A stretch of 64,000 bases of DNA from Silvibacterium acidisoli. Its GTDB lineage: Bacteria > Acidobacteriota > Terriglobia > Terriglobales > Acidobacteriaceae. The stretch spans positions 4,960,001-5,024,000 of the forward strand of contig CP085323.1 in NCBI GenBank assembly GCA_022870745.1. Direction: 5' to 3'. The notes under the pieces were generated by a model that had not been told where the DNA came from, searched no databases, and saw only the letters and a list, made by a program, of their open reading frames with translations. Made by a program: the position numbers and the translations under genes. Positions 19,852 through 52,018 of this stretch are shown here, one piece after another. Numbering within the stretch: position 1 is the stretch's first letter; each line of letters opens with the position of its first letter.

Positions 19852-19855
19852 TAAC

Positions 19856-19897
19856 GAACTCAAGTTCCGGGGATGAACATATCCGGAACTTGAGTTC
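19856..19897. terminator. Two-way hairpin terminator between convergent genes
   Basis: GAACTCAAGTTCCGG (19856-19870) pairs perfectly with CCGGAACTTGAGTTC (19883-19897), a 15-bp stem with a 12-base loop, followed by a T-rich stretch. It begins four bases after the receptor's stop codon and stands between the receptor (+) and the metallo-beta-lactamase-fold gene (-). Confidence 0.82.
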
Positions 19898-19940
19898 CCA
19901 TTCTTTATAGCCTTTAAGTTGTTGAGCGGTTCACTCGTAC

Positions 19941-21281: not shown

Positions 21282-21285
21282 AGTA

Positions 21286-23406: not shown

Positions 23407-23459
23407 TGTCTGGACCCGTATCAAAGTAAGAGGAGGCACGGCCTGAAAGGCCGATCACC

Positions 23460-23506
23460 AAAAAAATCGCTCCTGCGCCGGCCGCTGTATAGGACAGCCG
23501 GCGCAG
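23460..23506 (-). terminator. Hairpin with T tract after TonB receptor 3
   Basis: CTGCGCCGGC (23473-23482) pairs with GCCGGCGCAG (23497-23506), with an inner CTGT/ACAG pairing. Reading on the minus strand, six bases separate the stem from a run of seven T (23466-23460). It should end or strongly reduce transcription between the receptor and the fusion-protein gene. Confidence 0.8.
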
Positions 23507-23523
23507 AATGACTCAACAGAGAG

Positions 23524-26500
23524 CTAGAAGTTCAGCTTTCCTGTCAGCCGGAGGATGCGTTCATCCGCAGCACTGCCCACGGTAGAAGTGATCTCTCCAA
23601 AGTTGCTGGTTGATACGTTGTTTGCCGGGTTGGAAAAGTTCGGTGTGTTCGTGAGGTTGAATGCCTCTCCGCGCAGTTCGAGATGAATTCTCTGCGTCAC
23701 CGGGAAGGTACGCGAAATTCCAAGATCGAGGTCGGCATCGCCGGGCCCACGCAGCGAGTTGCGGCTGGCGGTTCCGAAATTCGCCGTCGTTACCGGAGCA
23801 AATGCGCTTGTATCGAACCATGTCGCGTACTTGCCGATACCGCCCAGCGTAGCAACATTGGACTTTACCTTATTCGCAACCTGCGTATTGTAGGCCGCGT
23901 TCAGCGAGGTGCCGGAAGCAAGCGGGGTGAAAGGAAGTCCGGTGTACTTCGAGACGACGGCATTGATCTTCCAGCCGCCGGCGATAGCGCTTGCCACGCC
24001 TCCTTGATTCAACAGGAGATGATCCTTTCCGAAAGGCAGCTCGGCTGAAAGCCCGAGGTCGAAGACCTGGTGCCGGTCAAAGTCGCTCACCGCGCGATTG
24101 CGATACTGATACGCACTTGCGTTGAAGAGCGGCACACTATCGTCGTCGGTGGCTTCATCGATGGATTTCGCAAAGGTGTAAGACGCCGTCATCAGCACGC
24201 CGTTTTTGAATGGCCGCTTCAGATTGAACTGCAATCCGTTGTAGTTGGCGGTTCCATAAGGGAGCAGGAGCTGCGTTTCCGCATTCCTTCCGAACTTGGC
24301 GTAGAGCGGCTGCCCGGCCGAGCCGAGACCCGGAGTCTGTCCGGCGTTCGCCTCGAAGTACGTCGTCTGGCGGATCGTCTGCGTGTTCACGTAGCTTGCG
24401 GTCAGGTTGAAATCCGCAGGCAGGGCGCGCTGCAGAGTCAGGTTCATCGACTCGACATATCCGCGTCGGAAGGTTCCCGCAGGCAGAGTCTTCGTATAAG
24501 CGCTGGTAGGCAATACAGCCGTGCCGTTGCTATTGATGACCGGTGCTACGGTGCTGTAGCCGGGAATGCCGGTCGTGAAATTTCCTGCGCTCACGTAGGA
24601 GTTGCTGGCGTTGACGGTCTGCGCAATCGTGACAGGATACGGGTCACGCATGGCGCGGCTGAAAGGGTATGGGTCGGTGCTGATGCCGTATCCGCCGCGC
24701 ACCACCGTCTTGTCGTCCAGACGGTAAGCGAAGCCGAAGCGGGGAGCAAACTGCAGCCTGCCGGCACTGGAGCCTGCGCCGTTGGGCTGGCCATCGATGC
24801 CGCCGAGAATCACCTCGTTGGTGTCGAAGTCATAGCGCTGCATGCCTGCCCCATCGCGGCTCATGATCGGGAAGAACTCCCAGCGCAGCCCATAAGTCAG
24901 TGTCAGGCGGCGTGATGCCTGCCATTGGTCCTGCGCATAGAGGCCGTACTGCCATTCGCGGCCGGTTATAGGATTTTCATACTGATAGCTCTTGCCCAGC
25001 GAATCGGGCAGGCCGAGAAGAAACTGCGCGAAGGCATTCGCCGAGGTGGGTGACGCGCCTCCCTTCACAGCAGTAACACCGCCCGTAAAGGTGAAGCCTC
25101 CGCGAGGTCCGAAACCGCGCTGTGGCTGATACTCGTTCATCCGGTTGTTGAGAAGCTGCGTGCCGAAGCGCAGGGTGTGGTTGCCCAGGGCCCAGGAAAG
25201 ATTGGCGACATAGGTGTAAGTGAAATCGTCTTTCAGCTCCGGCGTGTAGTCGTCCGGATTGCCGAAAGTCTCGAGGCCAGTGACCGCGAAGGACGGCAGG
25301 CCTGCCTGGTTCTTGTCAGTCCCGTAGCTTCCATCGCCATCGCTGTTGGTGCCGGGAATGCCGAGAGTCGGTCCCAGGTTGCTGGCGTAGTCGGATTCGT
25401 ACCAGGTAAGCCCATTGTGTCCTACACCGAAGTTGGCGTCGAAGAGCAGGTTGTTCGATAAAGATCGAGTGTAGCCAATGCCACCTATAAAGACGCGTGT
25501 CTGGCTATTACCGGAGCCAGCGTTCGCTCCGCCGGGACTAAGTCCTGTTCCGCCACCGATTCCCAACGTGCTGGGAGAATACACATCGGCACGAAGGTAG
25601 CTCAGTTTGGCGAACATCGACGACTTCTCATCGATCTGCCAGTTGACCTTCTCGTCGAAGGAGTAGCGATCGAGGCTGTAGGTTCCGGCAACCGAATAGT
25701 TGTTCGAGGTGCCGGGCAGGTTGGCGTGAGGAATCAGTGCGAGGAGTTTCGTTGCTGCCGGAGCGATTCCGCTCTCGATGACATTGCGCCCATCGGCGTT
25801 CTCGCTTGCGAAGGTCGTACGGCCCGAGCCATCGGAGCCACCGGTGTTCGGATTGTAGAGCGCCGCCAGACCGGTGAAGTCGCCTGTGCGCTCGGCGTCC
25901 GTCGGTAGCGAAATCAGTTCAGGATAGAGCTGGCGCTGGGACAACCCTTCGAATCCGCTGAAGAAGAACAGCCGGTTACGAAGAATGGGGCCGCCGAGAT
26001 TCGCGCCGAACTGGTTGAGAATGTTCTTCGGCACCGAGTCGCCGGCCTGCGAAAAATACGTCTTGTTGTAAAAATAATTCTTCGCTGCAAGAGCAGAAGC
26101 GGTGTTCTGCTCCCAGAGCGTGGCATGGAACTGGTTGGTTCCCGACTTGGTGAGAACCGACACAACCGCGCCGCCCGCGAGCCCCTGCTCCGCCGTGAAG
26201 CTGTTGGTTACGATGTCGACCGATTGAATGTCCTCCGTCGGCGGATTGTAGAGGGTGTGGTGAGGCAGGTACACCTGCTGGATCGCCGCTCCGTCCACCG
26301 AGGTGACATTGTCATTGCGCGAAGAGCCGTTGATGTTCGTGGTGAGGGATCGCGAGGGCGTATCCATCACCGAATTCTGGTAGCGGGACGGAGTTGCGCC
26401 CGGAAGCAGGCTCAGCAGGCTCTGATAGTTGTCGAAGCCTCCGATCGGAATATTGGCGAGTTCCTTGCTCGTCAGTTCTCCATGGATCGTACCGCTGTCC

Positions 26501-26895
26501 GTCTGCAGGGCCGTGCTCGCCGCACTTACGCTGACGGTTTCCGCGGCGCTTGCAACCTTGAGGGCTTCATCCGCACGCGCAATCTGGTTCGCCGTGATGT
26601 TGATCCCGGTTACCCTGGCAGTCGAGAAGCCGCTGGCGTCGATCTCAACCGAGTAGATGCCGGGTAAAAGGTCGCGCAGGTCGTATTCTCCCGATCCGTT
26701 TGTCCGCAGGGTGTGCTGTGCCCCTGTCTGAACCTCGGTTGCGGTAACGGTTGCGCCTGTCACCGGCTTGCCCGCCGGGTCGGTCACTGTTCCTACCAGC
26801 GTTCCATACAGAACCTGGGCATCGGCATGCTGGATGGCGCCCAGTAGCGCGCAAGCCAGAAGCGCGGTCCATGTCGCTCGAAATATCTTTCTCAT
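23524..26895 (-). CDS. TonB-dependent outer-membrane receptor, Oar-like (3)
   Basis: A 1123-residue protein from ATG 26895, with GGAGAG 7 bases upstream. The signal peptide ('FRATWTALLACALLGAIQ', ending 'HADAQ') is followed by a carboxypeptidase-regulatory domain ('GTLVGTVTDPAGKPVTGA'), a plug with 'IPIGGFDNYQSLLSLLPG' and 'VDGAAIQQVYLPHHTLYNPP', and a barrel ending 'LRLTGKLNF' with terminal Phe. It is divergent from the propeller-type regulator at 27262. Downstream on the same strand, past a terminator-like hairpin, lie the alpha-barrel/PHP-like fusion and the metallo-beta-lactamase-fold hydrolase, so its substrate may not be an ordinary polysaccharide. Confidence 0.93.
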   Translation of the reverse strand: MRKIFRATWTALLACALLGAIQHADAQVLYGTLVGTVTDPAGKPVTGATVTATEVQTGAQHTLRTNGSGEYDLRDLLPGIYSVEIDASGFSTARVTGINITANQIARADEALKVASAAETVSVSAASTALQTDSGTIHGELTSKELANIPIGGFDNYQSLLSLLPGATPSRYQNSVMDTPSRSLTTNINGSSRNDNVTSVDGAAIQQVYLPHHTLYNPPTEDIQSVDIVTNSFTAEQGLAGGAVVSVLTKSGTNQFHATLWEQNTASALAAKNYFYNKTYFSQAGDSVPKNILNQFGANLGGPILRNRLFFFSGFEGLSQRQLYPELISLPTDAERTGDFTGLAALYNPNTGGSDGSGRTTFASENADGRNVIESGIAPAATKLLALIPHANLPGTSNNYSVAGTYSLDRYSFDEKVNWQIDEKSSMFAKLSYLRADVYSPSTLGIGGGTGLSPGGANAGSGNSQTRVFIGGIGYTRSLSNNLLFDANFGVGHNGLTWYESDYASNLGPTLGIPGTNSDGDGSYGTDKNQAGLPSFAVTGLETFGNPDDYTPELKDDFTYTYVANLSWALGNHTLRFGTQLLNNRMNEYQPQRGFGPRGGFTFTGGVTAVKGGASPTSANAFAQFLLGLPDSLGKSYQYENPITGREWQYGLYAQDQWQASRRLTLTYGLRWEFFPIMSRDGAGMQRYDFDTNEVILGGIDGQPNGAGSSAGRLQFAPRFGFAYRLDDKTVVRGGYGISTDPYPFSRAMRDPYPVTIAQTVNASNSYVSAGNFTTGIPGYSTVAPVINSNGTAVLPTSAYTKTLPAGTFRRGYVESMNLTLQRALPADFNLTASYVNTQTIRQTTYFEANAGQTPGLGSAGQPLYAKFGRNAETQLLLPYGTANYNGLQFNLKRPFKNGVLMTASYTFAKSIDEATDDDSVPLFNASAYQYRNRAVSDFDRHQVFDLGLSAELPFGKDHLLLNQGGVASAIAGGWKINAVVSKYTGLPFTPLASGTSLNAAYNTQVANKVKSNVATLGGIGKYATWFDTSAFAPVTTANFGTASRNSLRGPGDADLDLGISRTFPVTQRIHLELRGEAFNLTNTPNFSNPANNVSTSNFGEITSTVGSAADERILRLTGKLNF

Positions 26896-29718: not shown

Positions 29719-32700
29719 CTACCAGCCGATTCCGAAGGCCATGTGTTCCGCCTGTCCCGTCGTGATGGTGGAGCTTTGGTTATTGTTGTCATCGTATGAG
29801 AAGCCGTATGCCAGCCCCCCGACTGAGTGCTGATGCCAGAACAGCGAATAGAAGTTTGCTGGCGACGATTGGTAGTAGGCAGCGACACTGGCCCAGTTTG
29901 CGGGAGTCAGGAGAACTCCCCGGTTGGTTGCGGCGCAGATCTGATTTTCAAGCTGCAACTGGATGTTGTTCTCGTCTGTAATCTGCGCTGTGGCCGGCTG
30001 GCCTGCCGCCGGCGCGACACCGGTTGCCATGGTCCCTGAGCATTGCACCAGATCCGAAGTGGACGGCTGCTGCACCGCGAAGGTTTCTCCGGCGTTTGCG
30101 GGAGCCGGGTTGTTCTCTGTGAAGTTGAGAGTCGAGCCGGTGGCGGTGCCGGTAAATTGGCGGCCGTTGACGGTGATGCTGAGCGGTTTAGTTGCATACT
30201 GCGCCCACGCGTTCGCGATCAGGCTCTGGAAGTAGGTCTGGCTGAACCCACCTGTAGCCATGGTGACACTTTGCTTGGGTGCGAGGATGCGCAGATTGGT
30301 GAGGGCCGGCACCTGGAAGTCTGCCGGGACCTGCGCGGCATATTCCTTGTCCAGATTGGCGATCGACTCGTTGATGCCTACCTGCATGTGGAAGGTTTCA
30401 CCGGATCCCCAGACATCCAGCAGGAGTGGTAACCCGAACTGGTCGACCTGGGTGGTGTTGATGAAGATGCTGCCATTCGCCCCGTACGTGAACTCATACC
30501 AGTCGTAGTGCACGTTGAGGTTCGGATCGGTGCCGTTGAGAGGGTTCGGTCCCGCGTATCCATTTGGGCCGTTTGCCGCGGGAACGATGGACATGTAAAG
30601 GGGACTTCCCTCGGAGATGTAGATACGGCCCGAGCTCAGAGGCGGCAGCTTGAGCTGGTGACTCTCGGCGAGGGTGAACGAGTAGTTGGGGTAGGTCTGT
30701 CCGTCCGGTCCGGTCAGTGCGTTTGACGCGGTGTTGTCCGCGACGTTGGCGGGTGTAGCGGTGCCGTTGAAGTTGACCCACTCCAGCGCGCCGCTGACAG
30801 GATCGTTGCCGAGAATCTCGACATAGATCTGGTTGTCAGCCCAGACGCCGTTGGTGTTGTTGTTGAGGTCGGTGGCGACGAAGCCGGGAACGACCGTGTA
30901 GCTGGGTGAGGCGTTCACGCTCAGCGTAGCAGCCGAAGAAGTAGCAGAGCTTACGGAGTTGGTGGCCGTTACCGTGAAGCTGCTGCCGTTGTCGCTGGCA
31001 GTGGTTCCCGGGGTTGCGTAGCTGGCGTTGGTTGCGCCGGGTATCGCAATCCCGTTCTTGAACCACTGGTAGCTCAGTGCGTTTCCGGTGGCTACCACTG
31101 AAAAGGTGGCGGTCCGTCCGATGGTGACTGCCTGAGGCGCCGGGGCCGTGGTGATGGCAGGTGCTGTCACCGGCCCGGTTGCCGAGTTAATGGTGTATGT
31201 TCCCGTCGCTACCCCGCTTACTTGCCCTGCGAGCACCGCGATGGCCTGGATCGTCTCGTTTGCGCTCACCGGAATCGCTGAGCTGTAAATGAGAGAGGAG
31301 GTTGTCGGAACTGTGCCGTTGGTTGTGTAGTAGACCGTTGCACCCTGAGTCGCATCGTCGATCGAAACACTCTGCGCCGCCGTATAACTTCCCGGCACAG
31401 GTGTAAAGGTTGGCGTCGCAACGGTGGATGGGGCCGCCGGAGTCGTTGTCGCACTCGCTTGCGGACTCGGCGCCGACGTGCCGGAAGCACTCGAAGCCTC
31501 GACCACGTAGAAGTAGCTGGTGTTTACTGCGAGTCCGGTATCCGAGTAGCTGGTGACGGTTGCCGTGCCGATTTGATTTGCGCTTGAGGGCGTGAAGCCG
31601 GACGCCGTGCTGCGGAAGACGTCATAGACCACTCCCGAAGTCGTCGAAGCCGTCCAGCTCAGATTGATCTGGCTGGTGGAAACGTCTGCTGCCGTGAGGC
31701 TCGCAGGCGCGGCAGGCGCAGCTCCGATCACTTCAATGCCGTTGATCTCGGCATTGTCGGTCACGGTCGTGAACTGCAACACAATCTGCCCCTGGGCATT
31801 GGCAATCGCCGTGAACGGCTCGACGATTGCAATATCCGGTCCTCCCGCTGTTGCCACGATGTCAAAGCTGCTCAGAACCTGGGCACCGTTGATGCTGACG
31901 TTAAAGACGCGCTGACCCTGCTGAGTCCAGTAGAACTCATCGAAGTGCAGACGCACGGTGTAGCTTGCTCCCGGAGTGAGGCCGGGAAGCGTGTAGCTAA
32001 AGCTGTTGCCCACACGCTGGTTCTGGTAAACCGACTCAGGCGCAGGGTTCATCACCTTTGACGTGTCGATTGTCGCGTTGGTGCCGGATGGGTTTCCGCC
32101 GTTGAAGTCTTCATCGGCAGCGTAGGCACCCGCGGCTGGACCACCCGCGCTGATCGCGAGCACGTCCGTGCCGCAACCCGACGTGCAGTTGACATCGAAT
32201 GTCCTTGCGGTTGCAGTGTTCGAGGCCATCGATGTCCCTGCGGAATCGACCGCCTGCACGGTGTAGGAGTACGTTGTTGAGGCCGTCAGTCCGGCATCGT
32301 TGAAGCTGGTTACGGTGAGGCCGTTCGCCACCGCGGTGCCGTTACGGAAGACGGTGTAGGTGACTCCCCAGGTCGCCGAAGCTGTCCAGCTGAGGTTGAT
32401 CTGGCGGGACGAAGCTACCGATGCCGCCAGATTCGACGGTGCGCCCGGAGGCGTATTCGCAGCTGTGGCATTCTGCACCTCGATGCCATTGATCTCCGCG
32501 TTGTCCTTGATCGAGACGAGTTGGAGAGCGATCTGGCCCTGTGCATTTGCGCTCGCCGCGAACTGCTCTACCACCGCGATATCCTGGCCGCCCGCAGCGG
32601 CCAGAATATCGAAGTTGGTTAGCACCTGCGTGCCGTTGATGCTGACGTTGAAGACGCGCTGACCTGGCTGAGTCCAGTAGAACTCATCGAAGTGCAGACG

Positions 32701-35700
32701 CACCACATAGTTCGTCGCGGGCGTCAGACCCGTGAGCGTGTAAGTGAAGTTGCCGAATCGCTGGTTCTGATAGACCGATTCGGGAGCGGGGTTGACGACT
32801 CCGGAGGTACTGATGGTTGCGCCGCTGCCCGAAGGCGTTCCGCCGGTGAAGTCTTCGTCCGCGGCAAAGTTGCCCGTGGCTGGACCGCCAGCGCTGATAG
32901 CGAGGATATCCGATCCGTTATTGGTCGGCGTACTCGCCTCGGCCCCTGTGGTAGCAGATGCGGTGTTCGAGGCGGGCGAGGTGCCCGCCGCGTTGACCGC
33001 GAGCACCGTATACGAATATCCGGTGGAGGCCGTGAGCCCGGTATCGCTGTAGGTCGTGGTGGCGAGATTGCTCGCCGCCACGGCGCCATTGCGCAACACC
33101 GTATACGCCACCCCTGGCGTTGCGGAGGCTGTCCAGCTCAGATCGATCTCGCTGGAGGAAGCCGCCGTCGCGGTCAGGTTTGCCGGTGCAGCTGGCAATG
33201 CGGCGGTTGTCGCATTGGCCTGCGGGCTGGGAGCCGAAGTTCCGGAAGCGTTCGAAGCCTCGACCGCATAGTAGTAGGTTGTGTTCATCATGACACCGGT
33301 ATCGGAATAGTTCGTACCGGTTGCCGTGGCAATCTGGTTTGCACTCGAAGGCGTGAAGCCTGCCGTAGTGCTGCGGAAGACATCATAGACGACACCCGGA
33401 GTCGTTGAAGCCGGCCAGGTGACATTGATCTGGTTCGCCGCGACAGCAGCCGCCGTCAGGCTGGCGGGTGCGACGGGCGCGGCCGAGATCACTTCGATGC
33501 CGTTGATCTCGGCATTGTCCGTGATGGTTGTGAACTGCAACACGATCTGCCCCTGAGAATTGGCAGTCACCGTGAACGGCTCTACGACTGCAATATCCGG
33601 TCCGCCCGCTGTTGCCACGATGTCAAAGCTGCTCAAAACCTGAGCGCCGTTGATGCTGACGTTGAAGACGCGCTGACCCGGCTGAGTCCAATAGAACTCG
33701 TCGAAGTGCAGGCGCACCGTATAGGTTGCTCCAGGCATCAAGCCAGGAAGGGTGTAAGTGAAGTTGTTGCCCACGCGCTGGTTCTGGTAAACCGATTCGG
33801 GAGCAGGGTTCATCACCTTTGACGTATTGATGGTGGCGTTGGTGCCAGATGCGCCTCCACCGTTGAAGTCTTCATCTGCGGCATAGACGCCCGCGGCGGG
33901 TCCGCCTGCGCTGATCGCGAGTACCTCCGAGCCGCAGCCCGCGGCACAGTTGACGTCGAAGGTGGTCGCGGTCGCAGTGTTCGAAGCCAGCGAAGTACCG
34001 GCAGGATCGACCGCCTCGACCGTGTAGGAGTAAGTAGTGGAAGCGGCGAGGCCCGCATCATTGTAGGTGGTCGCCGTCAGGCCATTCGCCACGGGGTTGC
34101 CGTTGCGGAAGACCGTGTAGCTGGCTCCGGCGGTTGCCGATGCCGTCCAGCTGAGGTTGATCTGGCTGGACGAAGCTACTGATGCCGCCAGATTCGACGG
34201 TGCGCCGGGAGGAGTATTGACCGCCGTCGCAGTGAGGACCTCGATGCCGTTGACTTCGGCGTTATCCGCCACCGAAGTGAATTGCAGCGTGATCTGTCCC
34301 TGAGCCGTCGAGGTTGCTGCGAACTGCTCGACAATGGCGATGTCCTGGCCGCCTGCGGCAGCGAAGATATCGAAGTTGGTCAGCACCTGCGTTCCGTTGA
34401 TGCTGACGTTGAAGACGCGCTGCCCTGGCTGAGTCCAATAGAACTCATCGAAGTGCAGACGCACCACATAGTTCGTCGCGGGTGTCAGACCCGTGAGTGT
34501 GTAGCTGAAGTTGCCGAATCGCTGGTTCTGATAGACCGATTCGGGGGCAGGGTTTGTGACGCCCGTGGTGCTGATCGTCGCGTTCGTGCCCGAAGCTCCA
34601 CCGCCGGTAAAGTCCTCATCGGGAGAGAAGATACCTGCCCCCGGACCGCCCGCGCTGATGGCAATTACATCCGAGCCGCAGTTCGAGGTGCAGCCGAGTT
34701 CCGGCGTCGTAGCCGAAGCCGCATTCGATGCCGCCGAATTTCCAGCCGAATCCGATGCTTCGACGATGTAGTAGTAGGTCGTGGTGGGAGCCGCGCTGGT
34801 GTCGGAGTACGTCGTACTCGTTGCCGTGGCGATCTGGTCAGCAGCCGAAGGAGTAAAGCCGGCCGTCGTGCTGCGGTAGACGTTGTAGCTGATGACGCAG
34901 CCAGTGGGTGCCGTGCTCGTTCCCCAGGTCAGATTCACCTGGCTCGCGGCATTGGCGCCCGCCGTCAGCGTTCCCGGCGTGCTCGGAACAGCCGCGCAGT
35001 TAACCGCCTGCACGGTGAGAGCCGCAGTGCTGCTGGTGGTTGTACCGAACGCGTCGCCGACGGCCACGCTGAAGAGCGTGTCGTTGTCGGCCGCCGTGGT
35101 GGCCGGTGTGGTGTAGGTCGATGAGGTTGCGCCGGAGATGGGACTTCCGTTCTTCGACCACTGATAGGTCAGGCTTCCGCTGCCGGTAGCCGCAACGCTG
35201 AAGCTGGCCGTCTGTCCTACCGTCACCGTCTGGCTGACCGGTTCCGTCGTGATCACAGGCGCAGCCCCGGCGGATGTTCCCGAGGCGCACAGCGTGGCTC
35301 CAGGAAAGTTGTTGGTGACCTGGAACGAGGAGCTGCCGTCGAAGTTGACGATCGACGACTTTGTGGCGTCGTCCGGATCTACGGTGGAGGTCCATGTGCT
35401 CCACGTTCCGCGGAAGGCGCAGCTGGCGTTGTTGACGCCGCTGATGCCCAATGCCTCGGACTGTGTCGGCAGGCGCATGCTGATGCTCGCGCAGTAGTTT
35501 TGCGCGCTCACGCCCGTGAACTGCGATCCCGCAGCGGTGTCTGTTTCGATGGTGCGGGTCCAGGTAAGGCTCGTCAGGTTGTCGGTGACGAGATTTGGAT
35601 TGGAGGTGTTGACGGTGTACCGCTCCGTCGGGCCACCGCACTGCGGCACGTTGTAGACCTGGAACTCGTAGATCGAGTAGCCGTACTGGCTGGCTCGTTG

Positions 35701-38700
35701 TGTACCGTTCATGCGGATATACTGCCCTTGAACAGTAGGAAAGTTTAGGGTCTGTGTCCCGCCAGCGTTGGTCGGCTCCGTGTTTGCCGGGGGCCAGGCC
35801 ACATTCCAGGTTGGATTGGTGGCAGGATCCTGGTTGGTGTACTCAATCTGGAATTGAGTCGCGTATGCGGCCTCCCAGTTGATGATCACGGTATTGAAGG
35901 ACTGGACGGAACCGAGATCAACCTGCAGCCATGAAGGATCGACTCCCGGAACCGCGGGTGTCGGCGGAGCATTTGCCACAGCCGATCCCCAGCGTGTCGT
36001 AAGATTGCCGTCCACGGCATCCTCTGCACCGAGGCAATTTGCGCCAGAGAAAGGCGGCATCGTGGTGCCATCGGTGCAAGGAGTCTGGCTGCTGCTCGAT
36101 GTGGCGACGGCGTTGAGAGCCAGGTTGACGCCGGGGGGCGCGAGCGTCAGCTGTGCCGCGTTGCTGGTGGCAGCTGCATTCGCGGCATTGTTGACCGTTA
36201 CCGTATACGCGCCGACATTCTCTATGCTTACCGCCGGAATCGTATAGGTAAGAGTGTTCGAAAGCTGCGAGCCGCTGGTAAGAATCGTGGTTGTGCCCCC
36301 CGCGGGAGTGAACTGCCACTGATAGGTGTAGGGAGCGGACCCTGTAACAACCGCGGTGAACTGAACCGGTTCATTGACCGGCGCGATCACGCCCGCAGGC
36401 TGCGTTGTGAAAATCACCGGTGTAGCCGCATTCACGGTCACCAGCGCAGTGGACGATTGAGCCGAACTGACCGGATTGGTCACCACGACGTAGAAGCCTG
36501 CGCTTCCATTCGCGGTAAATACCGGGGTCGTGTAGGAAGCCTGGGTCGCACCAGCAATGGCGCCCGACCCGGTCCGATACCACTGGTAGGTCAGCGAGGG
36601 CGAGCCGGAGGCCGTTACCGATAGCGTTGCGCTCTGCCCCACGACCACGGTCTGGGGAGCAGGTTGTGCAGTGATGGCGACTTTGGCCGACGTATCTACC
36701 GTCAGGGTAGCAGGAGACGATGTCACCGTCCCGAGGCTGCTGGTAACCGTGACAGTGTACATATCGCCGTTGTCTGCAATGGTCGTCGCCGGCGTGGTGT
36801 AAACAGCAGCGGTCGCTCCGGGGATCTCGCCATTGTTATTCGACCACTGGTAGGTGAGAGTACCCGAGCCGGAGGCCACTACGCTGAAGGTCGCGCTGAA
36901 GCCTGCCGTGGTTGCCGCGTTCACTGGCGGAACGATGATGACCGGCGCCTGCGATTGCACTGGCGGCGGAGGTGCTACCGAAGTCAAGGTAACACTGCCG
37001 CTCGCCAAACCTGGAGCGCTCGCGGTCACAGTCGTCGTACCGGGAGTAAAGGTGCTGCGGAGGGCGATCTTCTGCAATCCACCCTCGAAGTTCAGCTCCG
37101 GATCTCCGGGCGAGTGGAAGAAGGCAAAAGGAACTCCAGCAATGACGGAGCTGTTTGCCTGGGAGAATGCGTCCTGATAGTAGGTGGTCCACGAGGGGTC
37201 GGCGACCAACTGTTGCGTTCCGCCCATATAACTGGCTGGGCCGGATACGGAGAAGGTTACATTATCTGCTGCCGTCGGGACGAGGTTGCCATTGGCGTCC
37301 TCCACCTGCGCGACAACCATTGCTGCATCTGACCCGTTAGCAGTCCATTGGAAGCTGGTGCCATCCGGTTTGGTGACCTCGGGAACGACACTGAGAACGA
37401 TCCTGCTCTCCGCCCCGGCCGTTGTACGCGAATCGGTCACATTCGCAACCGGGTTGCTGTTCTCGTCGAGACACACGGCGCTAACCGTACCCGGCGCCCA
37501 GTTCACCATCCAGTGAACCTGTCCCGGCATCACGGTTGTGTTCTGGGTGAGGTCCGAATGGGAATCGACACTCCATGGGTTCGGTGTCTGGTCGGCGAGC
37601 ACCGCGCCCGTAACCGGATCCTTGGGAGAACCGTTGATGAGCAGACGCACCGAAGGACAGTTGCTGAACGCGTTCTCCTGGATCGGAGTGCCCGGCGTGT
37701 ATTCGTAGGACCGGTTCCAGTGATGCGCGAGGTGGACTACAGGCTTAACTGAGAACGGTATCCAGTTGGCCTGGTAGATGTAGTAGAGCAGCCTCGGGAA
37801 ACGGTTCGCATCTGTCGACGAGTAACCGAGCGACCGCACGAGGTTCAACATGTTGGGCTGGTTTTGATATTCGGCCCAGAGGCTCGTCTCGCCCGGAGAT
37901 TCAGCGAAGTACCACTGTGCCATGCCAAAGGCATTCGCTTGCCGTCCCTGGCGCCAGTCGTCGAGATAGGGAGCCGCGAAGGCAAGCTCGAAGTCATAGG
38001 CCAGGCCGCGCCCCGTACCCACGTTGTCCCAGTACTCGGCACCGAAGGCCGGATTGTTGGGATTCTGTTCCTTGTTTCCCGCTTCGCAGCCGGCTCCGTC
38101 GCATTCGTCCATGAATCCGTATGCGGGACTATAGGAGCGATCGGCGCTGACGCGCGTGTTGATGTTATCCCACGTCGTCTCGATTGTCTCAAGTTCGCTG
38201 GCGAGCGTTGGATTCATGCCGCCGTTGTCTCTCTCCCAATCGAGAATCGACGGATGGCTGCGATCGCGAATAATCATGTCGCGATGCACTTCCTGCTTGA
38301 GTTGCAGATCGTCGGCCGTCGGAGGGGTGGTGGCGTTCCAGTAATTTTCCCCATCGCCGCTCGGTTGATCGATCATGATGCCGTAGGCGTCTGCCGCCTC
38401 GACCATCTCTTCGCTGCTGGTCGAGTGTCCGGGGCGCCACACATTGCCGCCCTGGGCCGCGATCTGCGCCATATCGCGCCACCACTGCTCGTCGGGAACC
38501 GATGAGCCGAGCGCGGGATAGTCATAGCGGCTGGCTCCGCCCCACAGATACTGAGCGTGCCCGTTAAAAGAAGGAAAGTTTGCGTCCCAGGTAATGGTGC
38601 GGATACCAAGTGAACTCTGCGCCGAATCGACGATCACGCCGTTGACGCTGACGATGTGATAGACCTTGTACAAATATGGCGAGCCGCAGGAGACCGCAGG

Positions 38701-39846
38701 CGTACCGCAGATCGCGTTATTCGGATACCACAGTATCGGGTTGGGAACGTTGATCTGCTGATCGAACATCGGAACCGCGCCGGTTGGAAAGGTGCTGGGC
38801 GTCATCGGCGGAACGTTCTGCGTCACGGCAGGCGCTGTGACCACAACGTTGCCCTGCGCATCTACGATCTGCGTCGTTAGCGTAACCTGCTGTGCGACGG
38901 ATGACTCGTTGAGGACATTCGTTTGCACCTCGACGAGGGCGGAGGCAGCCGTTGCCGTCCCCTCGAGAGCCGGCACCTCGGATACCGTCCCGACATAGGT
39001 GCCCCAGGTCCTAGTGTTCGAGTAGACATTCAGTGGGATGTGAACCGGATTCGTGACATACAGCTTTACATTACGGAACAGTCCCGCCATCGCCTGGCCG
39101 AATCGGAAATCTTCAGCGAAATTCGGCGTTTCAAACCAGGGAGAGCCGCGAGCGACGTCGATGGCAATCACGTTGTCCGTCTGACCGTCTGCAACGATGT
39201 ACGGCGTAAGGTCACAGATGACCGGGACGAAACCGACCACGTGCGTGGCCTGCGCGTCTGCCGCTACCGCGCTGATGCCGGGCAGCAGCGTGCCGTTGAT
39301 AAAGACCTGAACGCCTGAGTGCGCTCCCTCGAGATTCAGGAGAAACTTCTGGCCTGCATACTTGGAGTCGACCTTGAAGTGCAGGCGATACCAGTTATTT
39401 TGCCCGTTGAGTGAACCCTCTCCACCGCCAGAGCCCTGATTGATAAAGGTGCGAGGAATGTTTGCATCGTAAGGCAATCCAACCTGGGTCCAGGTGGCGC
39501 TGCCGTCGGAGCTCTCGCTAAAGCCGGGCGCCGAGTAAGACGTGGAGTTGTTGGTGTTCTCGAACCACCAGTTGCTTTGCGGCGCATTCGATGCCGAGGC
39601 AGCATTGCCGATGTACTGCGGCATGCCTGCTGCAAGATTGATTGTCGAGCGTTGCGATATCGGCAGCGTGGGCTCGACCTGCTGCTGCTGGCTATAGCCC
39701 GTGCGCGCGCCTACCAGCGCAGCCAGTACAAAGACCATCGCTAGAAATGCCGGCCGCGCACGCTTCTTCCACAGAACCCGGTCAGCCAGAACAAAGGCAG
39801 GCATCGGAACAGAAAATGTCCCAGAACTACAGGCAGGTGATCTCAA
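29719..39846 (-). CDS. Giant secreted multimodular protein: GH2-like N-terminus, Ig, F5/8, FN3 and malectin modules, C-terminal GH64 beta-1,3-glucanase
   Basis: A 3375-residue protein from TTG 39846, supported by AGAGGA about 8 bases upstream. A signal segment ('AFLAMVFVLAALVGA', about residues 33-47) is followed by a GH2-type jelly roll (about 70-265), GH2 sandwich (270-410) and TIM barrel (415-770) with 'IRDRSHPSILDWERDNGG'. Next come Ig-like modules (about 800-1235), an F5/8 discoidin domain (about 1239-1400, 'WLQVDLGSVQSF'), a DUF1566/Lcl-like piece (about 1402-1520), Ig and FN3 units, four malectin domains (about 1722, 1969, 2310 and 2555 onward, 'ESVYQNQR', 'LHFDEFYWTQ'), a chitobiase-C-like module and an Ig. 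Residues about 2980-3375 are GH64, with candidate catalytic Glu3118 ('DWYEFTY') and Asp3135 ('QVDQFGLP') and the end 'EHMAFGIGW'. The usual GH2 acid/base motif GNE is absent. Probable role: extracellular breakdown of beta-1,3-glucan. Confidence 0.9.
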   Translation of the reverse strand: MRSPACSSGTFSVPMPAFVLADRVLWKKRARPAFLAMVFVLAALVGARTGYSQQQQVEPTLPISQRSTINLAAGMPQYIGNAASASNAPQSNWWFENTNNSTSYSAPGFSESSDGSATWTQVGLPYDANIPRTFINQGSGGGEGSLNGQNNWYRLHFKVDSKYAGQKFLLNLEGAHSGVQVFINGTLLPGISAVAADAQATHVVGFVPVICDLTPYIVADGQTDNVIAIDVARGSPWFETPNFAEDFRFGQAMAGLFRNVKLYVTNPVHIPLNVYSNTRTWGTYVGTVSEVPALEGTATAASALVEVQTNVLNESSVAQQVTLTTQIVDAQGNVVVTAPAVTQNVPPMTPSTFPTGAVPMFDQQINVPNPILWYPNNAICGTPAVSCGSPYLYKVYHIVSVNGVIVDSAQSSLGIRTITWDANFPSFNGHAQYLWGGASRYDYPALGSSVPDEQWWRDMAQIAAQGGNVWRPGHSTSSEEMVEAADAYGIMIDQPSGDGENYWNATTPPTADDLQLKQEVHRDMIIRDRSHPSILDWERDNGGMNPTLASELETIETTWDNINTRVSADRSYSPAYGFMDECDGAGCEAGNKEQNPNNPAFGAEYWDNVGTGRGLAYDFELAFAAPYLDDWRQGRQANAFGMAQWYFAESPGETSLWAEYQNQPNMLNLVRSLGYSSTDANRFPRLLYYIYQANWIPFSVKPVVHLAHHWNRSYEYTPGTPIQENAFSNCPSVRLLINGSPKDPVTGAVLADQTPNPWSVDSHSDLTQNTTVMPGQVHWMVNWAPGTVSAVCLDENSNPVANVTDSRTTAGAESRIVLSVVPEVTKPDGTSFQWTANGSDAAMVVAQVEDANGNLVPTAADNVTFSVSGPASYMGGTQQLVADPSWTTYYQDAFSQANSSVIAGVPFAFFHSPGDPELNFEGGLQKIALRSTFTPGTTTVTASAPGLASGSVTLTSVAPPPPVQSQAPVIIVPPVNAATTAGFSATFSVVASGSGTLTYQWSNNNGEIPGATAAVYTTPATTIADNGDMYTVTVTSSLGTVTSSPATLTVDTSAKVAITAQPAPQTVVVGQSATLSVTASGSPSLTYQWYRTGSGAIAGATQASYTTPVFTANGSAGFYVVVTNPVSSAQSSTALVTVNAATPVIFTTQPAGVIAPVNEPVQFTAVVTGSAPYTYQWQFTPAGGTTTILTSGSQLSNTLTYTIPAVSIENVGAYTVTVNNAANAAATSNAAQLTLAPPGVNLALNAVATSSSSQTPCTDGTTMPPFSGANCLGAEDAVDGNLTTRWGSAVANAPPTPAVPGVDPSWLQVDLGSVQSFNTVIINWEAAYATQFQIEYTNQDPATNPTWNVAWPPANTEPTNAGGTQTLNFPTVQGQYIRMNGTQRASQYGYSIYEFQVYNVPQCGGPTERYTVNTSNPNLVTDNLTSLTWTRTIETDTAAGSQFTGVSAQNYCASISMRLPTQSEALGISGVNNASCAFRGTWSTWTSTVDPDDATKSSIVNFDGSSSFQVTNNFPGATLCASGTSAGAAPVITTEPVSQTVTVGQTASFSVAATGSGSLTYQWSKNGSPISGATSSTYTTPATTAADNDTLFSVAVGDAFGTTTSSTAALTVQAVNCAAVPSTPGTLTAGANAASQVNLTWGTSTAPTGCVISYNVYRSTTAGFTPSAADQIATATSTTYSDTSAAPTTTYYYIVEASDSAGNSAASNAASATTPELGCTSNCGSDVIAISAGGPGAGIFSPDEDFTGGGASGTNATISTTGVTNPAPESVYQNQRFGNFSYTLTGLTPATNYVVRLHFDEFYWTQPGQRVFNVSINGTQVLTNFDIFAAAGGQDIAIVEQFAATSTAQGQITLQFTSVADNAEVNGIEVLTATAVNTPPGAPSNLAASVASSSQINLSWTASATAGASYTVFRNGNPVANGLTATTYNDAGLAASTTYSYTVEAVDPAGTSLASNTATATTFDVNCAAGCGSEVLAISAGGPAAGVYAADEDFNGGGASGTNATINTSKVMNPAPESVYQNQRVGNNFTYTLPGLMPGATYTVRLHFDEFYWTQPGQRVFNVSINGAQVLSSFDIVATAGGPDIAVVEPFTVTANSQGQIVLQFTTITDNAEINGIEVISAAPVAPASLTAAAVAANQINVTWPASTTPGVVYDVFRSTTAGFTPSSANQIATATGTNYSDTGVMMNTTYYYAVEASNASGTSAPSPQANATTAALPAAPANLTATAASSSEIDLSWTASATPGVAYTVLRNGAVAASNLATTTYSDTGLTASTGYSYTVLAVNAAGTSPASNTASATTGAEASTPTNNGSDILAISAGGPATGNFAADEDFTGGTPSGSGATISTSGVVNPAPESVYQNQRFGNFTYTLTGLTPATNYVVRLHFDEFYWTQPGQRVFNVSINGTQVLTNFDILAAAGGQDIAVVEQFAASANAQGQIALQLVSIKDNAEINGIEVQNATAANTPPGAPSNLAASVASSRQINLSWTASATWGVTYTVFRNGTAVANGLTVTSFNDAGLTASTTYSYTVQAVDSAGTSMASNTATARTFDVNCTSGCGTDVLAISAGGPAAGAYAADEDFNGGNPSGTNATIDTSKVMNPAPESVYQNQRVGNSFSYTLPGLTPGASYTVRLHFDEFYWTQQGQRVFNVSINGAQVLSSFDIVATAGGPDIAIVEPFTAIANAQGQIVLQFTTVTDNAEINGIEVIGAAPAAPASLTAADVSTSQINLSWTASTTSGVVYDVFRSTASGFTPSSANQIGTATVTSYSDTGLAVNTSYFYVVEASSASGTSAPSPQASATTTPAAPSTVATPTFTPVPGSYTAAQSVSIDDATQGATVYYTTNGTVPTTSSLIYSSAIPVSANETIQAIAVLAGQVSGVATGTYTINSATGPVTAPAITTAPAPQAVTIGRTATFSVVATGNALSYQWFKNGIAIPGATNASYATPGTTASDNGSSFTVTATNSVSSATSSAATLSVNASPSYTVVPGFVATDLNNNTNGVWADNQIYVEILGNDPVSGALEWVNFNGTATPANVADNTASNALTGPDGQTYPNYSFTLAESHQLKLPPLSSGRIYISEGSPLYMSIVPAANGPNGYAGPNPLNGTDPNLNVHYDWYEFTYGANGSIFINTTQVDQFGLPLLLDVWGSGETFHMQVGINESIANLDKEYAAQVPADFQVPALTNLRILAPKQSVTMATGGFSQTYFQSLIANAWAQYATKPLSITVNGRQFTGTATGSTLNFTENNPAPANAGETFAVQQPSTSDLVQCSGTMATGVAPAAGQPATAQITDENNIQLQLENQICAATNRGVLLTPANWASVAAYYQSSPANFYSLFWHQHSVGGLAYGFSYDDNNNQSSTITTGQAEHMAFGIGW
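31725..34682 (-). repeat. Four malectin-FN3 units arranged as a duplicated two-unit block
   Basis: Malectin-coding units lie at about 34682-34230, 33940-33490, 32915-32470 and 32180-31725, each followed by FN3-coding sequence. Units 1 and 3 resemble each other more than units 2 and 4 (for example 'RFGNF.YTLTGLTPATNYVV' against 'RVGN.F.YTLPGL.PGA.YTV'), so a block of about 1.76 kb seems to have been duplicated. All four keep almost identical DNA for the 'QRVFNVSIN' segment. Malectin domains bind di- or oligosaccharides. Confidence 0.85.
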
Positions 39847-43269: not shown

Positions 43270-44613
43270 TTACCAGAAACGAGTGGCAACCACCTCGGTT
43301 TGACCGGGCTCGTCGTCGACGACTTTCACGTGGATGACTACCTGCATGTTTTCATCTGCCCAGTTCTTCGGCGCGTTACGAAGAATGTCGGCAATCTTTT
43401 TCCGGTCGACCAGGATTTCACTGGCGGCCTGGGTTCCGTATTGCCCAATGCCTGCGGCCGTCAGCATGATGCTGTTGCTTTGCGGGAGAATCAGGCGGGA
43501 GAGGATGGCATAATCGTCGAGCGTTGAGCTTCCTGAGCCAGTACGAACCTTCCAGAAGCGGCTCTTGTCCTGGCGATCCGCAATCGTATCGCCGTTCAAA
43601 AAGGTGAATGGAGTATTGCGAGTTATGCCCAGCGTCCACCCGTTATTGAAGGCCCCAATGAGGACCGTCGGGCCGGTGTGTACGTCGCCTGCCGAGATGT
43701 CTCCTGCGAAACGCAACTGGTAGGGCTTGCCGTAGCGGGCCAGCATCGAGGTTATGGAGTTCGAGGCCAGCACGTCTCCGGTAGATACGTAGGTATTGCT
43801 GGATGCACTCAGGTCTTTAGGATCGATACTCTTGATCGACGGAAGCTGCACAACGAATTCAGGCCCCTGGTTTGGAAGCCCGTTGTCGTGCCGGTAGCGC
43901 TCCAGAAAATCCGGCGAGAAACGATAGACGACGTTGGTTCCGGTGTAGACGAGTACCGGGACCGGGCTTTTGAGAGCCGGCGCCCAGAAGAGATGGAAGG
44001 CACGTTCCTGTGCCGATGGAATGGCCATCCATATATATGTCCCTGCAACAAGCAGGAGCATTGCCGCCAGCAGTCCCCAGAAAAAACGATAGGGAGTGAC
44101 GCGTAACGCGCGGCGAGGCTCAAGGACAGGTAGAGAGCTCGCGGTTGGAACTGCCTCTTCGACGGCGAGTAATGGCTGCTCGACTACGGCAGTGATCGGG
44201 GTGAGCGACTCGAACTTCGCCCGATAGGTTCCGGATGGAATCTCTATGAGAGTTCCGGCGTTACGTCCTTCACTCTGGTAGAACTGGGCAAGCCGTTTTC
44301 TTACCTCGGCGATGCGCGATCGCACGATCGGGTCGTTGGCCGTGTCGTAATCCGGGGCGCGGCCAAAGACCTCCGATCCGATGACCCGCTCACGCAGCAG
44401 CGTCTCGTTTCCCTTCAGGCTGTGCTCGACGACATAACGGAGCAGATCCTGGCATTGCCTGCTGCTCCGAAAAGGCGCACTCCCGAGAATCTCGCGCAGG
44501 GTTTTGCGGACGGCTGCCCGGTTCGGCGACAGCGCAGCTACAGAACTCGCTTCTGCCTCGTTTTGCTCAAGAATCTGCCCGCTTTGACCCTGCCCCTGAT
44601 CCTGAACCGCCAC
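43270..44613 (-). CDS. Membrane regulator with conserved 'EVFGR' head domain and unrecognised periplasmic domain (copy D)
   Basis: The open frame runs to 44925, inside the divergent TonB gene, so the true start must be later. GTG 44613, with GGGG six bases upstream, is a reasonable but uncertain choice and gives about 447 residues. The head has 'LRERVIGSEVFGRAPDYDTAND' and 'IEIPSGTYRAKF'. A membrane helix ('FFWGLLAAMLLLVAGTYIWM') leads to a periplasmic domain with 'VLIGAFNNGWTLGI', 'DYAILSRLILPQSNSIMLTAAG' and 'GTQAASEIL', matching copies A and B. About 200 bases separate it from the TonB receptor gene it faces, which with GH31 is its probable target. Ligand unknown. Confidence 0.74.
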   Translation of the reverse strand: MAVQDQGQGQSGQILEQNEAEASSVAALSPNRAAVRKTLREILGSAPFRSSRQCQDLLRYVVEHSLKGNETLLRERVIGSEVFGRAPDYDTANDPIVRSRIAEVRKRLAQFYQSEGRNAGTLIEIPSGTYRAKFESLTPITAVVEQPLLAVEEAVPTASSLPVLEPRRALRVTPYRFFWGLLAAMLLLVAGTYIWMAIPSAQERAFHLFWAPALKSPVPVLVYTGTNVVYRFSPDFLERYRHDNGLPNQGPEFVVQLPSIKSIDPKDLSASSNTYVSTGDVLASNSITSMLARYGKPYQLRFAGDISAGDVHTGPTVLIGAFNNGWTLGITRNTPFTFLNGDTIADRQDKSRFWKVRTGSGSSTLDDYAILSRLILPQSNSIMLTAAGIGQYGTQAASEILVDRKKIADILRNAPKNWADENMQVVIHVKVVDDEPGQTEVVATRFW

Positions 44614-44814
44614 TCTTAACCCCAGCACACAGGTACTGCACGTACCTGTCGAACTATTTGCAAGGAAACAAGATACTCCTTTTCTCCGCGACTCTCTACT
44701 GTACTGACCGTTGACGATCGTGTAGCCGCAGGAATCTCTTCCTTCTCGGTAAGTACGGATCCGGGGAGACACGCGCCGAAGACAGGTGTCGACTCGGAAC
44801 GGAGGAGAAGTCCA

Positions 44815-47800
44815 TTGAGATTCAACCCCAGACGCCAGCTCACCTCTGCATCTCATTCCCTTTTTCTGAACGGCTTCTCTTTCCTGATTCTTTGTTGCCT
44901 GGTTCTCCCCCTGGCGCATGCACAAACGGCCGGAACCCTTTCGGGTACGGTCACGGACCAGAATGGTGCTGTCATTACCGGGGCGAAGGTCGCAATCCAG
45001 AACGAAAGCTCGGGGGATGTCCGGCGGACAGTATCCAATGGGTCGGGCAATTTCAGCGTGCCGGCGCTGGAGCCAGGCAGCTATCGCACGACCATCACCG
45101 CACAGGGTTTCGGCACCTTTGTGAGCGCCGGCCTGGTGTTAACCGAAGGCGAGAGCCGGGTCGTCCCCGGCATCCGCCTCAGGATCGGCTCGGCACAAAG
45201 CGTCGTCACGGTAACCGGAGAAGCGGAGGCAATCGTGCCCACGGATACGGGCTCGATGAGCACCGCTCTCAACAATCACATGGTCAGCGAGCTCTCGATC
45301 ACGGGCCGCGACGCCGGAGAGCTGATCAAGTACCTGCCGGGCATGGGTATTAATAATGGACTCGCCCAGGGCGCGAGCTTCACCGACCAGGTGACAGGAA
45401 CGAACACGGGGCCGGTTGGAGCCTACTCCGCGAATGGCTCGCAGCCGAACGGGGCTATGGCCTTCATGCTCGATGGAGCAAATATTCTCGACAGCAACAT
45501 GGGAACGCAGGTGGCCAACGTCAACCAGGACATGACATCGGAGGTGAAGGTAATGACCTCCTCCTATGGCGCCGAATTCGCCAAGGGACCAGTGGTCTTC
45601 GAAGCCTACGGCAAGAGCGGTGGCGAAAACTATCACGGTGAGGCGTATCTCTACACTCGCAACGCCAATCTGAACGCGGAAAATGCATTGCTACGGGAAG
45701 AGCAGATCGCCAAGCCCTACGATACCTACTACTACCTCGGGGGCAATCTCGGCGGACCTGTCCTGATTCCCCACACCAGTTTCAATCGCGGCCGCAGGAA
45801 GCTTTTCTTCTTCGGCGCTTACGAATACATGTGGCAGAAGCCCGCCGGAACACTCTATGAATACTTCGTTCCCACCGATGCCATGCGAGCGGGCGACTTC
45901 AGCGCGGCCAGCATGGCAACCCTGCCCTCAAGCGTGCCCGGCGGAGACAACGTCGTTCCCTGCGCCAGTGGCCCGACCTCATGCAATGCGAAGATGACCA
46001 TTCCCAACGGAAACGTCGCTCCGTTCTTCGATCCGAACGCTTTGGCGATGTTAAAGCTTTACCCCGAACCGACTGTGGATCCGGCAACGCACGGCGGCCA
46101 CAACTATACCTATCTCGACAACTACCCGACCAACCGGTGGGAGGCAAACGCCAAGATCAACTACGACATCAGCGACAAGATGAAGCTGTTTGGCACCTAC
46201 ATCCGGCAGAATGAACGCGACATTCACTCTTTCACCGTGTGGTACGCTCCCAGTTCCTCGCTACCTTACCCTTCGACCATCATCGCGCCGACGACTTCGA
46301 ACGTTGGCATTCTGCATCTGACGAATATCTTTTCGCCGACATTTACCAATGAAGCCGTCGGCTCATACGTACGTTATGCGAACGTAAACAAGCCGGAAAA
46401 CTCCGCGGCTTACTCGCGCACAGCACTTGGCTACAACGGAGGCAGCATCTTCGGGGCGAAGACCGACCAGATTCCAAACATCGTGAGCTATACCGGCGCG
46501 CTTCCCGGTTTCTATGCACCGTCCTTCGATGGTCCTTTGTCCGGTGGCGGCTTCGGCAAGATCCTGCGCAATGCTTCGATCTACGACAACCTCACCAAGG
46601 TGTGGGGAAAGCATACGGTCAAGGGTGGCGGCTTCTGGGAGATGTTCGGGAACGAGCAATCCAGCGGCGGCGGCAACATCTTTTACCAGGGCCTGTATGC
46701 CTTCGACAACTTCAGCAGCGTCGGCACTGGCAATCCCATTGCCGATTTCCTGATCGGTCATTCCGAACAGTACTCGCAGGCCAACGTCAACTCCGTCGAC
46801 AACGGCTACTACCGCGACTACGCCTTCTATGCGCAGGATTCGTGGAAGGTATCACGCAAGCTGACGCTCAACTATGGCATCCGCTTCGATCATCTCGGAC
46901 AGTGGTACTTCCCCAATCCTGGTACGCAGGTATGGAACCCTGCCACCTACAGCAACGCAGCCGATGCGCCCGCCAATACCGGGCTGTTGTGGCATGGAAT
47001 CGACAGCAAGATACCACTCTCCGGCTATCCTTCAACCTGGTATTACGAGCCGCGCGCCTCCTTTGCCTATGATGTGTACGGCAACGCAACCACGGTCGTG
47101 CGCGGCGGCTTCGCAGTGTATCGCTATCCACTGGGCGATTCGAATGCGGGGGCTGCCGAAGGCGCAATGGGCGTCTATCAATACCAGAGCCAGGTGGGCG
47201 TCACCTCGCTGGCCGGCATCTCGCAATTCATGCCCTCCGGACTCAACCAGAACGGCACCAGCATCTCCGTACTGCAACAGGGAGATAACCAGAATCCGCA
47301 GGTCGAGGATTACAACCTCACTGTTTCGCAGGGCATGCCCTGGCGGTCGGTTTTCGAACTCTCCTACGTTGGCAGCATGAGCCAGAACCTGCTCATCGAC
47401 GGAGCCGCGGCTTATATCAACATGGTGCCGCTTGGCGGCCTCTTTCAGCCCGATCCAGTAACCGGAGCACCGGCCGACCCCAGTGGCAACATCAACGTGA
47501 ATGACTACAAGCCCTATCGCAACTACCAGAACATCACCCTGGTGCGGCATGGCAGTTCCTCGAACTACAACGCTCTGCAGGTGGCATGGACCAAGCAATC
47601 CGGGCCGGTCACGTTTCTGCTGAACTACACCTTTGGCAAAGCGCTGGGCATTCGCGATGGCGAGTCGGACAATGGCCCCGGCAACGGATCGGTCGTCGAT
47701 CTCTTCAACCTGAAAAACAACTATGGCACGCTGGCCTACAACCACACCAATATCTTCAACGCGTCATACGTCATCAACCTGCCGAGCCCGATTCACAGCA

Positions 47801-48369: not shown

Positions 48370-48379
48370 CCACTCTTGT

Positions 48380-48419
48380 CCCGATGCGGACGATGTCTTC
48401 TAACATCTTCCGTATCGGG
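48380..48419 (+). terminator. Intercistronic hairpin after TonB receptor 4
   Basis: CCCGATGCGGA pairs with TCCGTATCGGG (one G-U pair) and an inner GATGT/ACATC extends the stem, with a 6-base loop. It sits 10 bases after the receptor's stop and 35 bases before the GH31 start, with no T tract. It may be a partial terminator or an mRNA-stabilising 3' end. Confidence 0.58.
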
Positions 48420-48454
48420 TATTCCTGTTCTATTTCTGACATGAAGGAGATCGA

Positions 48455-50827: not shown

Positions 50828-51213
50828 GCTTCGTCTTGAAACATCCACGCATCCCTTATTCGCTAGCAATGTGAAATGGTTTTCGATATTTGAAGGGCCC
50901 CACAGAACTCATCAACGATCGACATAACGGATCTTCGCAGGCCGAATTTATCCAAAAGATTCAGGCACTCGCTGAGGAGACTCACGGACGGCTAGCGACT
51001 CCCGATGAGAACGAAGCGATCGGCATCAGCCTCGGTTGAACTCCATCGTTGGCAATTGTCCGAATGAGTCACTTTTCTGTCTCTAGAACCGTCAGCTTGC
51101 GCACGGATGCTTCGCATCGAAGTCTTCAGTTTGCGGCACAGATACAGCATGGCCGACCGTTTGGTCGCATCGTCGCCTCAGATCCAATCCATCGTTATGC
51201 CAGGAGATCGAAT
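50828..51213 (+). other. Intergenic region with a small open frame
   Basis: A 386-base gap follows the GH31 gene. It contains a 49-codon open frame from TTG 50890 to a stop at 51039 whose product ('IQKIQALAEETHGRLATPDE' and flanks) has protein-like composition, but no ribosome site or recognised family supports it. It may be a gene remnant. No terminator is obvious. Confidence 0.3.
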
Positions 51214-51903: not shown

Positions 51904-51925
51904 TAGAACTCCTGCTCGGAGAAAA

Positions 51926-51951: not shown

Positions 51952-52018
51952 GCCTACTCTTCTGTCTCTTCTACAGACTTTTATCACTGGAACACTACCG
52001 GCCAACGGAATTTGATCG

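Follow-up and report, generated by a model that had tools for sequence, protein, structure and literature searches.

How can one bacterial protein begin like one sugar-cleaving enzyme, end as another and fill the space between with binding modules, and what would it attack? The question is raised by a gene of Silvibacterium acidisoli (Acidobacteriaceae) at positions 29719-39846, minus strand, of a stretch of 64,000 nucleotides of contig CP085323.1 (positions 4,960,001 to 5,024,000), which we call the window. An earlier reading of the letters of the window (the original prediction) had described a secreted chain with a start resembling glycoside hydrolase family 2 (GH2), a long series of binding modules and an end of glycoside hydrolase family 64 (GH64). 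Judging from the sequences of its relatives, this plan recurs outside the window genome and is not a one-off. Seen with these relatives, the odd giant open reading frame (ORF) is one member of a family in which the core hardly varies, the array can be exchanged and the glucanase tail is optional or altered. Its modules suggest that the protein is probably a secreted, multi-headed enzyme attacking fungal cell walls. Its length is not what makes it notable: the interest lies in a plan that recurs, a head of non-canonical type, a GH64 altered within one clade and a secretion operon beside some members.

One frame, many genomes

The window translation gives one uninterrupted ORF of 3375 codons with a TTG start and zero internal stops, as originally described. 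By eye, a GAGGA box lies just 5' of the start, and a signal-like N-terminus spans residues 26-52 approximately. Since the genome was assembled as one contig (5,359,900 bases, completeness 99.99), an assembly fusion is unlikely; an origin of the frame by assembly fusion or frameshift is excluded because other genomes contain relatives built to this plan. In 62 of 77 ORFs of at least 1500 residues, from Acidobacteriota and several proteobacterial families, a head and a full GH64 share one frame. The design is unusual, as had been claimed, although other genomes have it too.

A scan of 84,980 species genomes for relatives, made with two short peptide patterns, confirmed 126 stretches, of which the best 80 were retained, and gave 78 loci; it is biased towards close relatives and is no census. 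A head score above 150 was reached by 109 ORFs, 95 of them unique; 77 of these have at least 1500 residues (window included), and three of the 18 shorter ones (L136, L113 and L102) reach the end of their contig. To call modules in the relatives we used hidden Markov models (HMMs) grown from the window's own modules, and Pfam was run on five relatives or pieces. A search of the literature by titles and abstract openings, with closed papers outside its scope, found no GH2-GH64 chain described.

Searched in full against Pfam with curated cut-offs, the window protein matched a GH2-type head, Ig, F5/8, fn3, four malectins and GH64, bearing out the earlier module list. The GH2 N, Ig-like and TIM profiles scored 29.0, 39.9 and 22.0 bits (cut-offs 28, 23 and 21), the first and last with a margin of about one bit. 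Also matched were Glyco_hydro2_C5, Ig_3 (five stretches), F5/8, fn3 (six stretches), malectin (PF11721; 311.1 bits over four stretches, above the cut-off) and a CHB_HEX_C_1 module absent from that list. The GH64 profile reached 262.5 bits (cut-off 27), the sole GH64 match in the whole genome. A DUF1566-like piece lies where it had been placed, but its score with Lcl_C (PF07603), 21.0 bits, falls below the cut-off of 34.9; the corresponding piece after the first F5/8 module in three scanned relatives reached 26.6-29.9 bits. A structural comparison of the F5/8-Lcl part covered mainly the F5/8 half. The features are as follows (all on the minus strand).

29719..39846, minus: whole gene, 3375 residues, 349.7 kDa, isoelectric point 4.25
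37177..39669, minus: GH2-like head, residues 60-890 (Pfam, AlphaFold2; nearest solved structure 6hpd)
38347..38355, minus: codons of D498, G499 and E500, loop after strand b3 (alignment and model)
38233..38235, minus: codon of E538, W-E motif on strand b4 (alignment and model)
38221..38223, minus: codon of G542, at the position of the canonical GH2 acid/base Glu of NE (alignment)
38035..38037, minus: codon of E604, nucleophile-type Glu (alignment)
36145..37035, minus: three Ig/fn3-type modules following the head (HMMs built for this analysis)
35662..36027, minus: F5/8 module, type of carbohydrate-binding module family 32 (CBM32) (nearest chitosan-binding modules 4zxe/4zy9/4zz5)
35287..35628, minus: Lcl_C/DUF1566-like module (Pfam score under cut-off; relatives)
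34234..34671, minus: malectin 1 (Pfam)
33487..33927, minus: malectin 2 (Pfam)
32473..32910, minus: malectin 3, 80% DNA identity to malectin 1 (sequence comparison)
31726..32166, minus: malectin 4, 87% DNA identity to malectin 2 (sequence comparison)
31192..31416, minus: CHB_HEX_C_1 module (Pfam)
29722..30888, minus: GH64 module, residues 2987-3375, up to the last residue (Pfam)
30493..30495, minus: codon of E3118, GH64 catalytic Glu (alignment with 3gd0)
30442..30444, minus: codon of D3135, GH64 catalytic Asp, Asn in the Dyella-type clade (alignment with 3gd0)

The GH2-like head and its active site

The AlphaFold2 model of the head (predicted local distance difference test, pLDDT, 85.9; predicted template modelling score, pTM, 0.90) had as its top Foldseek match 6hpd, titled "beta-glucuronidase from glycoside hydrolase family 2". 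VIA-align ranked this structure eighth; among the 50 rows shown no other had so long an alignment (686 residues) or so low a root mean square deviation (2.5). The fold match extends across nearly the whole head, at 28% identity in the structural alignment. This structure is probably P17_GH2 of Formosa agariphila. P17_GH2 is named among ulvan enzymes.

The catalytic role of the NE motif in GH2 is well established. Where 7cwd reads W-S-I-G-N-E at the end of strand b4, the head reads W-E-R-D, then N-G. Among the 95 unique head ORFs, the acid/base position holds Gly in 92, Ala in three and Glu in none; because this Glu of NE is missing, we class the head as GH2-like and not as a canonical GH2 enzyme. 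Of the two catalytic modules originally proposed, GH64 has its catalytic pair, but the head lacks the canonical acid/base residue. Other GH2 genes of the window genome and six relatives carry NE in 19 of 20 readable motifs and SD in one, in a check that covered part of the genome matches (23 of 36 loci readable, three of these of the N-G type).

The rest of the site is nearly constant. The nucleophile Glu (E604, at the end of b7) is kept in 94/94 readable heads, one of the 95 giving no data; E538, N541 and E500 are each present in 95/95, and position 498 is Asp in 91 and Glu in four. Median ratios of nonsynonymous to synonymous substitution rates (dN/dS) of the head are low (0.063 in 14 Dyella-type and 0.093 in eight acidobacterial copies). 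Relatives of 827-1116 residues without the long chain have the same altered site as the heads of the giant ORFs. The W-E motif is likewise kept, and NE missing, in 6hpd (WEGGNW) and in the distant relative L074 (WEGGNQ). Like the head, 6hpd has a nucleophile-type Glu; it differs in reading N-W where the head has N-G, and the head is part of a giant chain. From the strand positions in the model, E500, D498 or E538 are candidates for a moved acid. In a Fibrobacteres bin (L142 3700-12607 and L143) we observed several N-G type GH2 copies of about 930-970 residues without the long chain, three of them in a row in L142.

The GH64 end and a clade with an altered catalytic residue

In the window GH64, E3118 and D3135 align with the catalytic Glu and Asp of 3gd0. 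Since both acids are in place, the module is likely a beta-1,3-glucanase, as its sequence indicates. It belongs to the same sequence family as the known endo-beta-1,3-glucanases 3gd0, 5h9x, 5h4e and 9vp9. The GH64 enzymes listed in PMC8394091 are non-modular or modular proteins of 39.4-57.5 kDa, whereas the window GH64 closes a 350-kDa chain behind a GH2-like head. For the acidobacterium strain SBC82, PMC6252331 predicts that a GH64 enzyme hydrolyses beta-1,3-glucan outside the cell.

Across the 65 GH64 pieces of the family, the catalytic Glu is found in all and the catalytic Asp in 51; the remaining 14 (L077, L079-L085, L091, L094, L096, L098, L099 and L104) have Asn. The Asp is present in 48/48 full-length copies outside the Dyella-type clade, window included. 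These 48 copies define 61 nearly invariant columns, 60 of which are kept in the Dyella-type clade, the catalytic Asp being the sole changed one. The median dN/dS of GH64 is 0.086 in the 14 Dyella-type rows and 0.076 in eight chosen acidobacterial copies, which are Asp-bearing. By these comparisons, the Dyella-type GH64 is a domain under purifying selection with one altered catalytic residue, and hydrolysis may have been lost. The full GH64 terminates within one residue of the C-terminus in 62/62 ORFs. A shortened GH64-like end occupies the place of GH64 in L028, L053 and L054/L089, with Glu and Asp counted as kept.

Binding modules and chain length

The F5/8-Lcl pair is present in 75 of the 77 long ORFs. 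Among solved structures, its constant F5/8 module (CBM32) is nearest to the chitosan-binding modules 4zxe, 4zy9 and 4zz5, a kinship that points to fungal walls. According to the deposit titles, those modules sit in a chitosanase/glucanase of Paenibacillus sp. IK-5, whereas the window CBM32 sits in a GH2-like/GH64 chain. Of the 75 ORFs, 24 have malectins in the array that follows the Lcl piece, 49 have F5/8 modules there and none has both; malectin arrays occur in the window, in the Dyella-type clade and in some Acidobacteriaceae.

The original prediction had suggested that the chain might span a thick glucan layer. As a fixed-length ruler across a glucan layer this idea found no support: in the 62 ORFs that have a full GH64, it is separated from the head by between 927 residues (L111) and 2097 residues (the window, with the most), and the array is of malectins in some ORFs and of F5/8 modules in others. 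The window gap itself is close to the earlier estimate of about 2200 residues. Malectins 1-2 and 3-4 pair as copies (80% and 87% DNA identity), and part of the length of the window protein is thus due to a duplicated malectin pair. The four malectins of the acidobacterial bin L078 are 88-93% alike among themselves, which reads as two apparently independent expansions.

Type II secretion genes beside some family members

In two proteobacterial clades of the head tree, which comprise Pandoraea, Paraburkholderia, Burkholderia, Trinickia, Nitrospirillum and kin, 17 of 19 members (all but L131 and L146) have type II secretion genes next to the giant gene. These genes follow it directly in 16, and in L133 they lie upstream in divergent orientation; the loci with adjoining type II genes are L193, L114, L120, L122, L124-L130, L133, L135, L137, L144, L147, L153 and L154, and the sequence ends inside gspF in L125, L144, L153 and L154. 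Within flanks of limited length, tblastn (1e-5) of the other loci gave only one partial gspE-like match, in L082. The sole operon read to its end is that of a Paraburkholderia largidicola plasmid, where the giant gene encodes 1865 residues. It leads from gspG through gspF and gspE to an 835-residue secretin with a C-terminal cohesin, and to pseudopilins.

L193 5966-15776: type II operon with cohesin-tailed secretin

In the window genome, pseudopilin-like ORFs accompany a similar ORF of 819 residues that combines TPR, secretin and cohesin domains (L196 8498-11855, at about 310.5-313.9 kb; the giant gene lies at about 4.99 Mb). By analogy, we hypothesize that the window protein may be exported by a type II system.

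Proposed function and alternatives

We consider it probable, though far from certain, that the giant protein works as a secreted multi-headed enzyme on fungal walls. After export, CBM32 and the malectins would hold it on the chitosan- and glucan-rich wall, GH64 would cut beta-1,3-glucan, and the head would remove a further wall sugar using E604 and another acid (E500, D498 or E538). Several points weigh against this. The fungal target is drawn from the kinship of CBM32 and the ecology of the carriers, and the sugars bound by the malectin and CBM32 families are diverse. The head, which fails the canonical GH2 acid/base test, may for that reason not be catalytic. The 14 Asn-bearing GH64 ends are exactly the Dyella/Rhodanobacter-type clade, 12 of the 77 long ORFs have no GH64 (11 closed by a stop codon, L092 cut by a contig end) and three have the shortened end; glucan hydrolysis is, by sequence, not a trait of every family member. 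As to export, the adjacency to type II genes is known from genera other than that of the window, where the giant gene has no such genes beside it; a search of the window genome with PF08334 (T2SSG) at E 0.001 matched nothing, and one pseudopilin of the genome's distant secretin cluster scored 19.6 bits (cut-off 21).

The replacement of the acid/base Glu in all 95 heads, next to the NE of nearly all readable other GH2 genes in the window genome and six relatives, would also be expected if the head were a GH2 relic, non-catalytic or nearly inactive, that binds or serves as a scaffold and leaves GH64 as the one working head. We regard this as possible, but clearly less likely than a multi-headed enzyme: the nucleophile, E538, E500 and N541 are retained, the dN/dS values of the head are low, the nearest solved structure is titled a beta-glucuronidase and likewise lacks NE, and free-standing relatives have the same site. 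A related view, that the protein is a giant wall-binding adhesin or lectin whose enzyme heads mainly bind and for which catalysis is optional, appears improbable. It would account for the Asp-to-Asn change in 14/14 Dyella-type copies with the rest of the domain kept and constrained, and for members whose GH64 is shortened (L028, L053 and L089) or absent; it fits poorly with a catalytic Asp kept everywhere outside that clade and a Glu kept throughout. The target could also be a plant, algal or bacterial beta-glucan, since plants, algae and some bacteria also contain beta-1,3-glucan according to PMC8394091, and GH31, GH5 and large outer-membrane barrel genes lie in the window. Against this, which we think rather unlikely, stand the likeness of CBM32 to chitosan-binding modules and the description of some carrier groups as mycophagous.

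The fungal-wall enzyme could be taken further, to a proposal that we find doubtful: the head would be a new GH2 catalytic subtype, with its acid/base moved to E500/D498 or E538, and its fusion to a glucanase a transferable fungal-wall tool delivered by the cohesin-tailed type II system, the Dyella-type Asp-to-Asn change turning GH64 into a glucan-holding module. Three matters are open to direct test here: a GH2 barrel without its usual acid, the change of an enzyme into a binding module by one substitution, and the cargo of a dedicated type II operon.

Distribution, phylogeny and possible transfer

The family occurs in soil bacteria of several phyla, some groups of which are described as fungus-feeding. 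In a phylum sample of 396 genomes, PF16483 was found in 11 and the head (E 1e-30) in nine; all seven genomes in both lists have head and GH64 in one frame (with a shortened GH64 in G370). In a family sample, the head (E 1e-30) was found in 40 of 398 genomes, many at only 29-40% identity. Only three of nine listed genomes of the window's own genus match the head, one distantly, and presence is thus patchy.

The head tree (94 of 95 heads, one of fewer than 500 residues left out) places the window, L078 and the 14 Dyella/Rhodanobacter-type copies inside a starred set of Acidobacteriaceae copies; the fork uniting the window and the Dyella clade has support 94 and is not starred. In a careful tree of 33 rows, chosen by hand, this fork is starred (98/92). 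Constraining the 16 acidobacterial rows together gave a p value of 0.014 in the approximately unbiased (AU) test, a value that is too favourable, as the group was named only once the first tree was known. The GH64 tree (62 of 65 pieces, three short ones left out) also unites the window and the Dyella clade (99), and head and GH64 distances are correlated (Mantel r 0.786). L078 is closer to the window in its head (86%) than in its GH64 (64%; the Dyella clade has 73-78%), indicating that the tail does not in every case share the strict descent of the head. Candidatus Eremiobacteraeota is the label of one row in the Dyella clade, and Melainabacteria that of a further row of the tree; both bins may be mislabelled.

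A plasmid search returned seven records. Among them is a family member on the Granulicella tundricola plasmid pACIX902, WP_157478238.1, named "beta-1,3-glucanase family protein". Like the window protein it has head and GH64 in one frame; it differs in having an F5/8 array instead of malectins, and its public name covers only its GH64 end.

Gene neighbourhood

We searched the relatives' loci for 12 window neighbours (tblastn, E 1e-20). Most had no match near the relatives' genes, and a conserved gene cluster was discarded. Since the neighbourhoods are largely unshared among the relatives compared, it appears to be the single gene that spreads as a unit. A protein of 551 residues (43270-44925, minus strand), with no Pfam match above cut-off, recurs close to the giant gene in seven loci, which belong to five distinct acidobacterial genomes; its homologues have 29-32% identity and, in L026, L027 and L111, are divergently oriented at most about 430 bases away. 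A condensation-type neighbour was matched in L067 and L068/L112, and an outer-membrane barrel neighbour in L028 and L112. The surroundings of the gene (16501-26895 and 44815-53937) include three large outer-membrane beta-barrel proteins that carry carboxypeptidase-regulatory domains, together with a GH31 and a GH5 gene, perhaps a sugar-uptake setting.
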